Part shown: piece after piece, positions 1 to 5,926 of the stretch
How positions within the stretch are numbered: position 1 is the stretch's first letter
Layout of the letters: each line of letters opens with the position of its first letter
Position numbers and translations under genes: made by a program
The notes under the pieces: generated by a model
What the model saw: only the letters and a program-made list of their open reading frames with translations
What the model was told of the DNA's origin: nothing
Databases searched by the model: none
NCBI RefSeq assembly: GCF_964204645.1
Contig: NC_134034.1
Location: forward strand, 806,001-870,000
Origin: Tubulanus polymorphus
Lineage: Eukaryota > Nemertea > Palaeonemertea > Tubulaniformes > Tubulanidae
Length of the DNA: 64,000 nt
Direction: 5' to 3'

Positions 1-190
1 ATCATGTAATTCTTATGTGCTCTGATCTATAGACTCTTCTAAAAAAAGATGGCTGCCTCCAAAATTCCGCCAATTACATCATAATATAAACGTGCTCTGA
101 TCTATAGACTGTTCTAAACAGATGTCTGCCTCCATAAATCCCCCTATGACATCATCAAATTGCCAACTAGTGACTTGATCTAATAGAGCC
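1..190. repeat. Partial cluster of the 76-bp dispersed repeat
   Basis: About two diverged copies of a 76-bp unit that recurs across the window. Its marks are CCTATGACATCATCAAATTG, a TCTATAGAC segment, TTCTAGAA and a GTCTGCCTCCAT segment. It lies just downstream of Kunitz gene 1, so that gene's 3' end and any further exon are interrupted by this repeat or lie outside the window. Confidence 0.75.
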
Positions 191-232
191 TTTTAGACCT
201 GTTCTAGAAGTCTCTTAACTTACCTAGATGTT

Positions 233-746
233 TCAACATTCTTTCTGGCACTGTTCCAGCGTGAGGAAGTTATTTGCATTTCCCTGGCAACCTCCGTACG
301 TGAACGACTGACAGGTCTTTGTTGATTGGTCAAAGTAAAATCTCGGCATCAGCGCCATACACGGTCCGGTATCCTTTGGTAGGAAGCAGGCAGCTTGAGG
401 GAAGAGAAATAGAATAACATCTTGTTTCAATTCAAAACTTGAGACCACTCAAAAATTGAATATACACGTTTTGCGAGACTGCTTACTTGAGTGTAACGCC
501 GCCTGGGAACACACGAAAACCGTCTACAAAAAATACGAATAAAATTCATGTAGTCAATTTGAATTTCTCTAGAAAAAAAAAACAAAGATGGCGCTGCCTC
601 CACGGTTTCTGGAAATGTCAACATTAGGCCTGAATATATGAAACAGGGTCGCATTGGGCCCAGTATAAGTTCAAGTCAATAAAATCAATAAGATATCTAC
701 TTACGCATAGCAACGCGACACAAATCAATAATTTATTCGACGCCAT
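233..746 (-). CDS. Kunitz gene 1: small secreted single-domain Kunitz/BPTI-like protein
   Basis: Three coding exons on the minus strand: 746-705, 523-487 and 393-233. They join in frame to 79 residues. Exon 1 (MASNKLLICVALLC) and the 37-nt exon 2 (TVFVCSQAALHS) together encode a hydrophobic signal peptide; exon 3 is one complete Kunitz domain. Cysteine spacing is canonical: C-x8-C-x15-C-x7-C-x12-C-x3-C. The family blocks GPC, FTYGGC and NNF are present. The P1 position after the second cysteine is Met, so trypsin inhibition is not expected from the sequence, and an elastase- or chymotrypsin-like target or a non-inhibitory role is possible. The stop codon directly follows the sixth cysteine. 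A good donor (TAG/gtaagt) lies only 9 nt after the stop, hinting at a 3'UTR intron and a lost C-terminal exon compared with genes 2 and 3. All three junctions are GT-AG. Confidence 0.85.
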
Positions 747-1462
747 TGTAAAGGGATTGCGATCTAACAGTCATGTATCTAACAGTCGACTGAACTCACG
801 TTGTTTTATACCCGAACCGGCGGAAACGGAATCCCGGACGTTATCACCACTATCTACTATAACGACGATTTAAAATTCACCGAAATCAAATGTATTTTTA
901 TCTTTTTCATTTTTTCGAGATTAACGATTTTCATTATTCAATACGCAATCCGACAGGTCACGTGACCGTGCGAAACGTTGCACGTGACCTTCCCTAGCAG
1001 ACGGCAAACAAAATCATCAACCACCTCTACTACATACTCGACTGTGAAGCTAGAGATGGTGGCTCGGGGGCCAAGGGCCCGTTCCATAGTCAAGAACTAA
1101 GGCAAATTGGTGTTCGATTGGTCGCAGAAGTAATTTTCCAGATTGGTTATAGAATAACATTAGATAAAAAATACGTCAAAAATGTATCTGTCTTGTGAAA
1201 TGGTTTTTATGATAATGGAACAATTAATCGGATTTTTAAATCAATTCTATCATAATTTCCAGAATTCCAGTTCCCCAGTTGTTGAATTGTTGCTGCCTAT
1301 TCGTCCAAATCCTGAAAGAAATAAGACTTGTCAGATCTATAATATATTTTGTTATGGTGACCACGTCGTTGTGTCGTCACTCGAAACCCTAGAGTTCCAC
1401 GACAGGTCTGTCGGTAAAGATTTCGAATATTTTTAACTCATTTCGAATATTTCAGAGTTAAC
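747..1462. other. Spacer between Kunitz genes 1 and 2, with the gene 1 promoter
   Basis: No further exon was recognised. Gene 1 reads leftward, so its promoter lies here. On the minus strand TATAAA occupies 810-805, about 60 bp upstream of the ATG. A perfect palindrome GGTCACGTGACC lies at 956-967, and a second CACGTG core at 981-986. The short open frame at 1182-1436 has no recognisable family and is probably chance. Confidence 0.5.
804..986 (-). promoter_or_regulatory. TATA box and paired CACGTG E-boxes upstream of Kunitz gene 1
   Basis: TATAAAA on the minus strand at about 810-804 is well placed for a start site near 775-780. The two CACGTG cores (in 956-967 and at 981-986) are the usual palindromic sites of bHLH factors. 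CACGTG also occurs next to the TATA box of Kunitz gene 3. Function is inferred from position only. Confidence 0.5.
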
Positions 1463-1550
1463 TCAACAAACCTTCATTGTACAAGAGCCTTGTTTCAGTA
1501 AGGCCGCGCATCTTTCGCAATCTTTCGGTTCTTTTTCTACGATGACCGAT
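1463..1550 (-). CDS. Exon 4 of Kunitz gene 2: C-terminal four-cysteine tail
   Basis: The exon joins in phase after ...YCID and encodes KSVIVEKEPKDC, then ERC, GSC and KVC followed by a stop. The homologous exon of gene 3 lies at 4369-4276. Between the two copies the start of the exon is diverged while EPKDCERCAALLKQGSC is kept, the pattern expected of selected protein sequence. I do not recognise this four-cysteine motif as a named domain. Confidence 0.8.
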
Positions 1551-3180
1551 CTATAAAATAACCAAACACAGTCTCAATCATTGTGCCCTACACGCAGCAC
1601 GCACGCACGCACGCACGCACGCACACCAATATTTTCAAATTATTTGTGTTAAGTCTGTAGGCTAACCCTGAGTTTGATTGGTCGAGATACGATTGTTTCT
1701 TGTTGACCAGGGCGTCAGAGTGGTGGACCCATACTGATCAAGTTGTTGGCCTATATTGTCGAAGTTGTAGGCTCACGTCGTTTAGGCCCGCCATATTAAC
1801 AAAGTTGTTGTTGTGGACACATATTGGCGTGCGCATTGATGGCTGGAGGATGGGCGCTTACACGAGATGGGGCGCTTTATTTAATCCCACAATAAATTCA
1901 GCCAAAAATGAAAAGTTCTATATTAAAATGATTATATTTCGAGCAACATTTCGGCTAAGCCATCATCGGGCGTACTGGACCTTCATTTTTGGCTCAATCT
2001 ATTTTGGGATCTCTCTCGTAAAAGCAGTCATAATTTGATTTGTGATAATTACTTGTCAATGCAGTATGCCTCGCAAAGATCCTTGGCGATGAAATTATTG
2101 CTATTTCCATTGCACCCTTCGTATAGGAACTTTTCGCATTTCTCGGTCTCTGTGTTGTAATAATATCTATAAGGTTTAGTGAAGCCATATGGGGTGTAAA
2201 GACAGTGACCAACTTCTAAAGGCAGATAACAAACCACTGAAAATCAGACAGAAAAAAAAACAATGTCAGTTCATCGCAAAGTAGTGAAACTCGTTATGGA
2301 GGACAGCTTATGCGGTGGTACTAGATAGTGAAACGGGGTTTACAGACATTTCTACCGAGTTGAGGGAAATATAGAAATGAGGTAATTGTGGAACTGAGGA
2401 ATGAACAACAGAGTTTGGTAGACAACTGTGAGCTGGGTGGATAACACTATCGACAGTGAGCATTGGAGAGAACGGAGGACTTGGTCATTGCACAACTTAA
2501 ATGAAGGACCATATGGGTCCAGTAGGATCAAAAGAGTTACTTTTGGGGACAAAAATCGATTTGTTCCAAGATTTGCAATTACGTAAACAGCTGATAGGGA
2601 TGAAATCATGGTGCACTGTGTACATTTTCAACTTTGATGATATAGCATGGTATAAGACTCACTGGCATATGGTAGAACAATCAGTACTATGTTCTTGATA
2701 AGGATATCTCTGGGAAAGCCCTTCTTAAGAGATTTCCAAGTGATGTCTTCATGGAGGGCTTTCCCTGTGATGTCATGAAACAAGGTCAAGCATCGATTAG
2801 CAGAATAGGGAAAAATTCTGTGAAGTTTTGCACATTTTCTCCCCCAGCACTTCCAAACGGCTTAGAGCTGATGGACGAAACTTTCCAGATCAACACCTAT
2901 CTCCCTCCTAGTGACAAAATATCGGCCGTGTGTATGTCCAGTAGTTACAATTAGGATGAACACAGTTGATCCTAAAAATGCGGAAAAACAAGAAGGACAG
3001 CCACATTACTTACTTCGTTTATACTCAGTGGGTGGTTCACTGTACACGCATATGGCCTACAAATTGAAATAGCTTATAATTATCAGGACTGGATCTAGGA
3101 GCCACCCAGGATAGCCCTGCTGTCCAAATAGATACTTCACATACCCAAAGACAGATAACTGCTATTGTAAGGTACTTCAT
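1463..3180 (-). CDS. Kunitz gene 2: secreted Kunitz protein with extended loop and Cys-rich tail
   Basis: Four coding exons on the minus strand: 3180-3145, 3056-3014, 2236-2053 and 1550-1463. They total 351 nt, 116 residues. Exon 1 (MKYLTIAVICLW) plus exon 2 (AICVYSEPPTEYKR) give the signal peptide and a short linker. Exon 3 is a Kunitz domain with C-x8-C-x21-C-x7-C-x12-C-x3-C; the second interval is six residues longer than the usual 15, placing extra sequence in the inhibitory-loop region. The residue after the second cysteine is Leu. Exon 4 follows the strong acceptor tttggttattttatag and encodes a linker and a tail containing DCERCAALLKQGSC and a final Cys before the stop (C-x2-C-x8-C-x4-C). 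The tail is nearly identical in gene 3, in the same phase, which supports it as coding. An in-frame TAA sits just past the exon 3 donor, so an unspliced form would stop after the domain. Confidence 0.85.
1596..1624. repeat. ACGC tetranucleotide microsatellite
   Basis: About seven perfect copies of the 4-bp unit GCAC/ACGC, just upstream (minus sense) of exon 4 of Kunitz gene 2. Confidence 0.9.
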
Positions 3181-3430
3181 CGTGTTGAAGGTTGACTGAT
3201 ATTGAGTCTACTCGGCATCCTGCTCTCTATATATTCAATCGTCCATATAAATATCATTCATTATCATTTGTTTGATCCATGCGTAAAAAATTGTGTAACC
3301 GTTTGCCGATAGAGCACATAGTCAACCGGGTATGAATTAATTTTTATGTTTACCAAACATGTTCTATCTATATTTTGCTTCTGGTGCATCTGAAGTCGTT
3401 CTCTCCCCATCCCTGTCGCAGGGTTCCCAA
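3181..3430 (-). promoter_or_regulatory. Promoter of Kunitz gene 2, part of a duplicated block
   Basis: A TATA-like ATATATAGAG lies at 3234-3225 on the minus strand, about 50 bp upstream of the ATG. The flank up to about 3430 matches the flank of gene 3 (5339-5590): shared landmarks are ATTCAATCGTCCATAT, TGTTTACCAAACATGT and ATCTGAAGTCGTTCTCTC. The duplication that made genes 2 and 3 therefore carried about 250 bp of upstream DNA with it. In gene 3 a CACGTG core sits by the TATA box; in gene 2 it is lost. Confidence 0.6.
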
Positions 3431-4275
3431 GGGTTGGCAAAAATCATTATCTATAAGCAGATTATAAATTTTCGATACCACGAAGTTACGACTGGAACGA
3501 CTGATCACACGGGTGCCAAATGGGCCAGAGCCTGGTTCCACGCTGCTGAGAGGGTGTCGCCAGGCGGAGAGGCCGGTTCAACGCTGCTGAGAGGATGTCT
3601 CCAGGCGCAGAGTGTTCCAGGCTAGAAAATGTGTCTCACGTTGAGAAGGTGCCTCCAGGTTCAATCTGAAAGAGCTAGGGCAGCACCGCATGTTGAGGAT
3701 GGTTCCAGCTACGAGAGCGTGTGCCTCCGGACTGCAGAGAAGGTGCTTCCAACGAGAGGAGATCTTCAGCCCTCGCTGGTGCTGTTTAGATAATCAATTC
3801 CAGTTTTAATTCGAATTTTATTTCATACATAAAAATCAATTTCTTAGTAACTGAGAAATGAATTTCAATCAAATATTTGCTATGATACCATGAATCTTAT
3901 ATTTCATTTCTCAATCACATACAACGATATAACTTATAAATTTACAATTTCCAAATGACATAGTTTTCAGTAATCTCCCCATCTATAGGAGAGACCAGTC
4001 CCGCATAGTAATATCGACTATTCTTCCTGCAAGAAATAGAATTTTATGGTGGCATTTCATTAATTTCATAAGGATTTTTGAAGCGATAAGATGACGATCC
4101 TCCGAGGCCAGATCCGTAGTCGAGACTTGAAACTAAAATCCTAAGACTGGTCACATGTTAGTCATTAGATTGTCTACAGAACTAAGATGGTCTCGGTCTA
4201 TACCCCTTGACTATGGGACCAGCCGCTGGTTTCGATGTCGAGTTTCTATATTTCAAACTATAATGATTTGATATT
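3431..4275. other. Spacer between Kunitz genes 2 and 3
   Basis: No gene recognised. On the minus strand an AATAAA (plus TTTATT at 3817-3822) is a possible polyadenylation signal for gene 3, about 450 bp after its stop. Positions 4085-4240 look like a diverged foldback element related to those at 13220-13350 and 54467-54596, with repeated 'actaaaat/aagac' and 'gactatggga' ends. Confidence 0.4.
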
Positions 4276-5338
4276 TCAAACTGCTAAACAAACCTTTACA
4301 ATACAAGAGCCTTGTTTTAATAACGCGGCGCATCTTTCGCAATCTTTCGGTTCTTCTCTGATCGTTGTTCTGAAAGAAAAAAAACAAACAGAATTTCTCA
4401 ATGTGCCAAATGCACCAATAGTGTCAAGGCTTAAGTCATGATCAAGCTAAACTATAATCAACAGACCCGGCAGTTATAGAAATGAACTGATTACAAATGT
4501 TATTGCGGTTTACAAAAGTGACCCGGCCGATTAGGAGAAACAAGGTTTCATTTTTAGCCCAATCATTGGTTTCTGAGATGAGGGCTCAGAGTTGTGATGG
4601 GTTCATAATACAGTTTTACCCATTTTAAACCAGTAATGCTCGGACAATGGTTGATATTTACTTGTAAATGCAGCGGGCCTCGCAAAGTTCCTTGGCTAGG
4701 AAGTTATTTTCATTTCCCTTACATCCACTGTAAAAGAATTTTTCGCAGTTCTTGGTCTCGTGGTTGAAGAAATATCTCGGAATTCCGATTTGATGCGCAT
4801 CATATATACAAACGCCTTTTATTGCAGGTAGGTAACACTCCACTATAGATTATAAATAGAAAAACACTTTCATTTCATATCAGGCCTACTTAAACACGAC
4901 CGGAATTCGGTGGAGGATATCTGTAGATTTTGGTGGACAATTGTGGAACAGATTTGAAAACTCGGAATTTGTGAATGGACAAGCGCGGGACTGGTTGGAC
5001 TTGGTGTATAGCTGGCCGCAACGTTACAGAACTTAGTGGACAAATGTAGGTTTTCACCCAGTCCTGGAAGTGGTTGCATCAACAGTGGACTTAATAGGCA
5101 ACAACTGTGTTTGCATGGCCACTTGCGGGTCGGGTGCACAGCTTCAAAAGATGCTGAAATACTGGCAGATATCACTTACTTGGTCTAAGCCCAATGCATT
5201 GACTGTAGGCGAAAATAGTCTGAAAATTTGAAAGAGACATTAGAATTAGTGCTGAATCTAGGACTGCTCCATGGTTACCGAATGTACGTAAGATGCACAT
5301 ACCCATAAACAGATAACTCCTATTGAAAGGTTGTTCAT
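4276..5338 (-). CDS. Kunitz gene 3: secreted Kunitz protein with extended loop and Cys-rich tail
   Basis: Four coding exons on the minus strand: 5338-5303, 5219-5180, 4842-4662 and 4369-4276. They total 351 nt, 116 residues, the same length as gene 2. Exon 1 (MNNLSIGVICLW) and exon 2 (TIFAYSQCIGLRP) give the signal peptide. Exon 3 is the Kunitz domain, C-x8-C-x20-C-x7-C-x12-C-x3-C, with five extra residues in the second interval and Ile after the second cysteine. Exon 4, behind the strong acceptor tttttttctttcag, encodes the tail EPKDCERCAALLKQGSC...KVC and ends LAV-stop. Exon order, exon phases and promoter flank match gene 2, so the two arose by tandem duplication. Inferred role: secreted protease inhibitor or matrix/defence protein; the altered loop makes classical inhibition uncertain. 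Confidence 0.87.
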
Positions 5339-5386
5339 CGTGTTGAATATTGAACTGATATTCAGTGGAGGGATCATCAGTTCAGT

Positions 5387-5403
5387 CACGTGCTCTATTT
5401 ATA
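5387..5403 (-). promoter_or_regulatory. TATA box with adjacent CACGTG, Kunitz gene 3
   Basis: On the minus strand TATAAATA (5403-5396) is followed directly by GAG and CACGTG (5392-5387). It lies about 60 bp upstream of the ATG, a good core-promoter position. Confidence 0.6.
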
Positions 5404-5926
5404 TTCAATCGTCCATATCAATATCATTTGTCTGATACGTCAAAATTGTTAAATAGTTTCAAGATAGTGAGTCGACACATTCTAAACCAGCGATGAATCA
5501 ATTTTATCATGTTTACCAAACATGTCCTATCTCTCAAATTGTTTCTAGTGGATCTGAAGTCGTTCTCTCTCCATTCCTGTCGAGACCGTGATTAAAGGGT
5601 GGGAGAGGGTGGCTCCAGCAAACGTGCTGACCGGAGAGAGCGGTACGATTTTGGAAGATGGGGATCCGCCAGACTGAGAGAGGGGGGGGGGGGGGGGTAC
5701 AGGATATCCTCCGACAAAAATGTAACCAAAAAAAATCATAAGTTTTTTTCAATTTTTGATAAAACTTTTATTTTAATGATTTTTTGTACATAAAATGCAA
5801 TTTCATACATTTGCTGTTCGTATAAGGAGCTTCTAAACACATGAGTTTCATACACGAACCGTTTCAGCAGAGAGATTATAAACACCGGCACACACCCTGT
5901 ACTTACTGGATCCAGTAAAACAAGTT

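Follow-up and report, generated by a model that had tools for sequence, protein, structure and literature searches.

A tandem group of Kunitz genes with a conserved four-cysteine tail exon and an enlarged, divergent reactive-site loop in Tubulanus polymorphus

The left end of the window, the 64,000-nucleotide stretch of DNA analysed here (C10:806001-870000, from an assembly of 267.8 Mb in 77 contigs), carries three Kunitz genes (gene 1, gene 2 and gene 3), all on the minus strand. Genes 2 and 3, together with a third gene of the same kind (T3) just left of the window, combine an enlarged reactive-site loop with a conserved final exon coding for four cysteines. The account that we favour, and to which we would give roughly an even chance, is that these genes form a tandem family of secreted Kunitz inhibitors whose enlarged loop is turned against changing targets while the tail stays fixed. 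The remaining sequence (window 9500-64000) holds exon pieces that we take to belong to a Daam-type formin, SMARCD and an RBM45-like RNA-binding protein, with many short tandem repeats among them. The features on which the argument draws are listed here, in window positions unless C10 is named.

233..746 (746-705, 523-487, 393-233), minus strand: gene 1, tail-less, 79 residues, 5-residue loop; Kunitz domain by Pfam
1463..1550, minus strand: gene 2 exon 4, four-cysteine tail and stop; from the gene model, the gene 2/3 comparison and the genome search
2053..2236, minus strand: gene 2 exon 3, Kunitz domain with enlarged loop; PF00014, E 8.2e-15
2169..2201, minus strand: gene 2 enlarged reactive-site loop, LYTPYGFTKPY, 11 residues; from alignment and loop extraction
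3014..3056, minus strand: gene 2 exon 2; splice-site gene model
3145..3180, minus strand: gene 2 exon 1, signal-peptide-like start, MKYLTIAVICLW; TATA at -51 and TCAGT at -19 from the ATG
4276..4369, minus strand: gene 3 exon 4, four-cysteine tail and stop; from the gene model, the gene 2/3 comparison and the genome search
4662..4842, minus strand: gene 3 exon 3, Kunitz domain with enlarged loop; PF00014, E 8.5e-16
4778..4807, minus strand: gene 3 loop, IYDAHQIGIP, 10 residues, every one changed in T3; from the gene 3/T3 comparison
5180..5219, minus strand: gene 3 exon 2, coding for an extra cysteine ahead of the Kunitz domain; gene model
5303..5338, minus strand: gene 3 exon 1; splice-site gene model
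C10:804616-804581, 804496-804457, 804048-803868 and 803594-803501, minus strand, as written: T3 exons 1-4, 116 residues
C10:789344-799127 and 799127-808910, unstranded: exact tandem repeat of 9,784 bases, zero mismatches
1..2910, unstranded: window portion of the right-hand repeat copy, whose end cuts gene 2 in intron 2

The original prediction gave genes 2 and 3 a fourth exon in matching phase and proteins of exactly 116 residues, and both statements are borne out by gene models of four exons each with GT/AG splice sites. The shared length is less telling than it looks, as three single-residue indels between the two proteins are offset by three extra C-terminal residues. Gene 1 consists of three coding exons and ends in exon 3; nine bases past its stop (window 218-235) there is a consensus donor, GTAAGT, and an untranslated exon may follow. 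Assignment to the Kunitz family is secure for all three genes of the window, with PF00014 scores of 77.9 (gene 1), 55.2 (gene 2) and 58.3 bits (gene 3) against a curated cut-off of 21 bits, and with all six Kunitz cysteines aligned, by order only. Gene 3 and T3 code for one additional cysteine before the domain, a position at which gene 2 has none. Judged from their sequences, the products of gene 2, gene 3 and T3 are probably secreted. A blastn comparison of genes 2 and 3 aligns exon 4, a portion of exon 3 and the promoter together with exon 1; beyond these there are just two matches, each shorter than 20 bases. Promoter-like sequence with TATA and TCAGT is common to window 3180-3440, window 5338-5600 and C10:804616-804876, and the upstream region of T3 is nearer to that of gene 2 (235/261) than to that of gene 3 (204/243), though the body of T3 is of the gene 3 kind.

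Genes 2 and 3 enter exon 4 in identical phase, and it adds EPKDCERCAALLKQGSC..KVC, in which the cysteines follow the predicted C-x2-C-x8-C-x4-C spacing up to the closing KVC. Over the 22 residues that run from EPKDC to KVC the two genes agree at 20, and the tail does prove more conserved between them than the linker that precedes it. By Nei-Gojobori counts, the tail has a dN of 0.047 and a dS of 0.55 (23 aligned codons, the shared stop included), compared with 0.133 and 0.58 for the whole of exon 4 (27 codons) and 0.373 and 0.90 for exon 3 (60 codons). The synonymous excess over nonsynonymous change within the tail is significant (by Fisher's test, p is 0.007 or 0.0006 according to the rounding used), and nonsynonymous differences are fewer there than in exon 3 (p 0.0002). 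Between gene 3 and T3 the same EPKDC to KVC stretch has no nonsynonymous change and one synonymous change. Substitutions of this kind indicate that purifying selection acts on the tail, and make it very probable that the tail is translated. Gene conversion, considered as the only reason for the likeness of the tails, is not needed: the synonymous rate of exon 4 is comparable with that of exon 3, and because it is not far below it, selection suffices and recent copying need not be invoked. Three distinct paralogues, a matching phase and a low dN/dS support the pairing of a Kunitz domain with a translated four-cysteine exon.

A search of the genome for the four-cysteine tail found it in five places at E up to 10, all within C10:793.7-810.4 kb (~17 kb), and the 16-residue tail core used as query returned the same five places with 16/16 residues identical at each; the search scores only candidates from a loose first look, so that far-diverged tails could be missed. 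These places are gene 3, gene 2, T3 and one exact copy each of T3 and gene 2, which makes the tandem arrangement larger than had been claimed. T3 carries the same tail as the genes of the window. The two copies of the exact repeat overlap by one base, and the repeat either arose by duplication very recently or is an artefact of the assembly. Because its end falls inside intron 2, the copy of gene 2 is 5'-truncated, without exons 1 and 2; if the repeat is real, there are four complete copies and a truncated one, which represent three distinct tailed genes. Two tail-less Kunitz genes, gene 1 and one at C10:802.0-802.6 kb, are interspersed among the tailed copies. With exon 3 of gene 2 as genome query, 51 matches were obtained, with scores of 139 bits for gene 2 and its copy, 66.1 for gene 3 and 62.6 for T3 and its copy; since the next gene scores only 42.1 bits, the tailed genes form one group. 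T3, the tail-less gene near 802 kb, the exact repeat over window 1-2910 and the enlargement of the loop all go beyond the original prediction.

The loop is counted here between Cys14 and the conserved Arg20, the arginine of RYYY/RYFF that closes the stretch. There are 11 residues here in gene 2, 10 in gene 3 and 10 in T3, compared with 5 in gene 1. All five tailed copies have a loop of 10-11 residues and a Kunitz span of 168-174 nt, and the standard 5-residue reactive loop of canonical Kunitz inhibitors is found in none of gene 2, gene 3 and T3. From 30 fetched Kunitz loci, 16 were extracted for comparison (a set that includes both copies of gene 1 and of the gene near C10:802 kb); 12 gave 5 residues by script, and the 4 that were missed or mis-cut read as 5 by eye. 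The genome gave 66 Kunitz matches, of which only 11 are longer than 159 bases, namely the five tailed copies and six on contig C12. The C12 genes, whose matches are equally long, were considered as kin and rejected, for they have another cysteine layout, a 7-residue loop by eye and no tail in the stretch shown. They comprise six Kunitz-like exons at C12:5707445-5766651, in two groups ~52 kb apart, in which the cysteines are spread out and a motif resembling GCGKPKRxDNIF occurs. A large Kunitz exon array lies at C5:2036415-2121809. At 7 of the 9 loci fetched from it Cys14 has become Gly and Cys38 has become Met or Ala, so the second disulfide is lost at these loci. Loss of the second Kunitz disulfide is also a trait of conkunitzins.

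Divergence between gene 3 and T3 is concentrated in the loop. Fifteen of its 30 bases and all 10 of its residues differ (13.8 nonsynonymous and 1.2 synonymous changes), against 14 of 318 bases in the coding sequence outside the loop, 42 of 689 aligned intron bases (gaps left out; ~94% identity) and 31 of 293 in the 300 bases past the stop. By Fisher's test the loop departs both from the other coding sequence (p 8.7e-11) and from the introns (p 3.1e-10), while these two do not differ from one another (p 0.30); the contrast is that of one paralogue pair, gene 3/T3. Fast change is also seen beyond the loop, the protein start ahead of the Kunitz domain showing a dN of 0.352 against a dS of 0.27 between genes 2 and 3 (26 codons). 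As read from this comparison, the loop difference would reflect either diversifying (repeated) selection or replacement of the loop.

No family matching the tails was found in Pfam or NCBIfam by hmmscan, whose filters drop most matches above E 0.1. Zinc fingers supplied the only two rows for the tail among PDB sequences, at a chance level of E 1.3 and 2.1, and were rejected as a known domain; whole gene 2 likewise drew a chance zinc-finger row from Pfam (E 0.7) over its Kunitz part. A literature search turned up neither a named Kunitz protein with a tail of this kind nor the letters of the tail. The suggestion that a Kunitz-plus-tail family may be undescribed stands so far as Pfam, NCBIfam, PDB sequences and the literature searched go. 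Exon 3 and the tail were modelled apart, from alignments of 3 and 2 rows respectively, and both models, of low confidence (pLDDT 55.5 for exon 3; 62.2 with a pTM of 0.24 for the tail alone), are too weak to use. The tail may be a small disulfide module absent from the domain libraries searched.

How such proteins might work can be outlined as follows. Genes 2, 3 and T3 would make up a small tandem family of secreted Kunitz-scaffold proteins in which the enlarged loop, of 10-11 residues instead of 5, contacts a fast-changing target. The tail coded by exon 4 would be a conserved structural element, probably held closed by two internal disulfides and lying alongside or against the Kunitz domain. 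Once expressed, the proteins would most likely block proteases of an opponent, be it a microbe, a parasite, prey or a predator, by means of a reactive loop that is modified and has a hydrophobic residue (Leu, Ile, Met) at P1. We consider secreted inhibitors in conflict with changing targets the most likely reading because the loop sits at the canonical protease contact, a place where positive selection has been reported. The protease target itself is not secure, as the doubled loop and the Tyr or Asp at P1' misfit the usual canonical mode of inhibition.

It is this last point that gives weight to another reading, in which the Kunitz scaffold no longer serves a protease inhibitor, the enlarged loop recognises a channel, a receptor or a microbial surface, and the tail stabilises or dimerises the protein. 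Each of the three distinct tailed genes has a loop of 10-11 residues in which P1 is followed by Tyr (two genes) or Asp (one gene), and this makes a target other than a protease a serious rival, with a substantial though clearly smaller than even chance of being correct. It would also accommodate the replacement of every loop position, not P1 alone, between gene 3 and T3, and the extra cysteine of these two genes, the eleventh if it is retained in the mature protein, could bridge two chains; gene 2, however, has no cysteine there, and a hydrophobic P1 is retained in all three genes. Quite a different objection is that transcripts stop in exon 3, through a retained intron that adds K and then a stop, so that the tail would be unused or confined to a minor isoform. 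By eye the donors of exon 3 (GTAATT, GTAAAT) are weak, with no G at either -1 or +5, and gene 2 has ATTAAA at 1885 and AATAAA at 1881 within intron 3, with neither signal from its stop (1463) until 737, a position inside gene 1. In gene 3 and T3, however, neither poly(A) signal occurs in intron 3 and AATAAA lies downstream of exon 4 (window 3822; C10:803082), while the immediate stop is the ordinary outcome of a phase-2 GTAA donor after AA. Since, moreover, dN/dS is low when the tails of genes 2 and 3 are compared, and no amino acid from EPKDC to KVC changes between gene 3 and T3, we think it very improbable that transcripts end in this way as a rule; a Kunitz-only product is possible as a minor form.

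The origins of the loop and of the tail each invite a further alternative. The loops of gene 3 and T3 might differ through a single segment swap, by gene conversion from another paralogue, and not through repeated point selection. The cluster does recombine, as its exact repeat shows, and T3 joins an upstream region nearer to gene 2 with an exon 1 equal to that of gene 3. Yet no donor of either loop is present in the window or in fetched loci L001-L030 and L036-L040, and a swap sparing both flanks would still have to be retained, so that we hold this explanation possible and on the whole unlikely. Less probable again, in our estimate improbable, is descent of the tail from the shortened start of a second Kunitz domain. 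Its segment CAALLKQGSC has the spacing and glycine of a Kunitz start (C-x6-G-x-C; compare CFLPKDTGPC of gene 1), and in phmmer the alignment of gene 2 with boophilin continues through the tail and enters the second domain of boophilin at its start. If the cysteines are kept in place, the eight inner residues can be arranged in 10,080 ways, of which 608 reach the tail's mean score against 17 Kunitz starts and 450 its best score, a borderline result with a register picked after the tail had been seen. When no register is imposed the test is negative (59 of 300 whole-tail shuffles score as high), and the flanking C-x2-C before and C-x4-C after this segment have no place in a Kunitz domain.

A bolder reading, which we hold possible though on the whole unlikely, goes further. 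The tailed genes could be a lineage-specific Kunitz subfamily whose inhibitory loop has turned into a hypervariable recognition loop; the rest of the scaffold would stay fixed and be locked by the tail, a novel four-cysteine element with a small fold of its own, and tandem duplication would renew the copies, with a different loop for each gene. The family has the look of a new local form of a familiar kind of inhibitor. It offers a natural case of one short contact loop rewritten from end to end between two genes whose introns remain ~94% identical and whose tail is nearly unchanged. Should the loop be the recognition surface, the family would lend itself to testing how inhibitors evolve against targets that change fast.

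Among known systems, genes 2 and 3 resemble the Kunitz/BPTI family (PF00014, MEROPS I2) in their six cysteines and profile match, and differ from it by the 5-6 residues inserted after Cys14 and by the four-cysteine C-terminal exon. Against PDB sequences, the best match of gene 2 is the carboxypeptidase inhibitor SmCI (4bd9), followed by boophilin, among the best 60 of 112 matches. ShKT or SXC modules contain a C-x8-C segment with a Gly two residues ahead of the second Cys, and by description the tail shares such a segment and glycine; these modules have six cysteines, however, and the tail only four. In hmmscan, with the same filters above E 0.1, neither the three genes of the window nor the two tails gave a listed match to ShK (PF01549, presumably ShKT) at E up to 10. 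In snake Kunitz families the canonical loop is under positive selection, and the venom genes are like those described here in forming a multigene family with selected sites in that loop (PMC5107962). Many selected sites lie outside the loop in the snake genes too, whereas in the gene 3/T3 pair it is the loop that stands out; the words "insertion" and "indel" are absent from the available text of that paper (PMC5107962). The available text on the EgKU family of Kunitz inhibitors of Echinococcus granulosus, in which the words "insertion" and "C-terminal extension" are absent, describes close paralogue pairs and what its authors call "accelerated evolution" (PMC2740865), and it is as a Kunitz family with close paralogues evolving fast that EgKU resembles the tailed genes.
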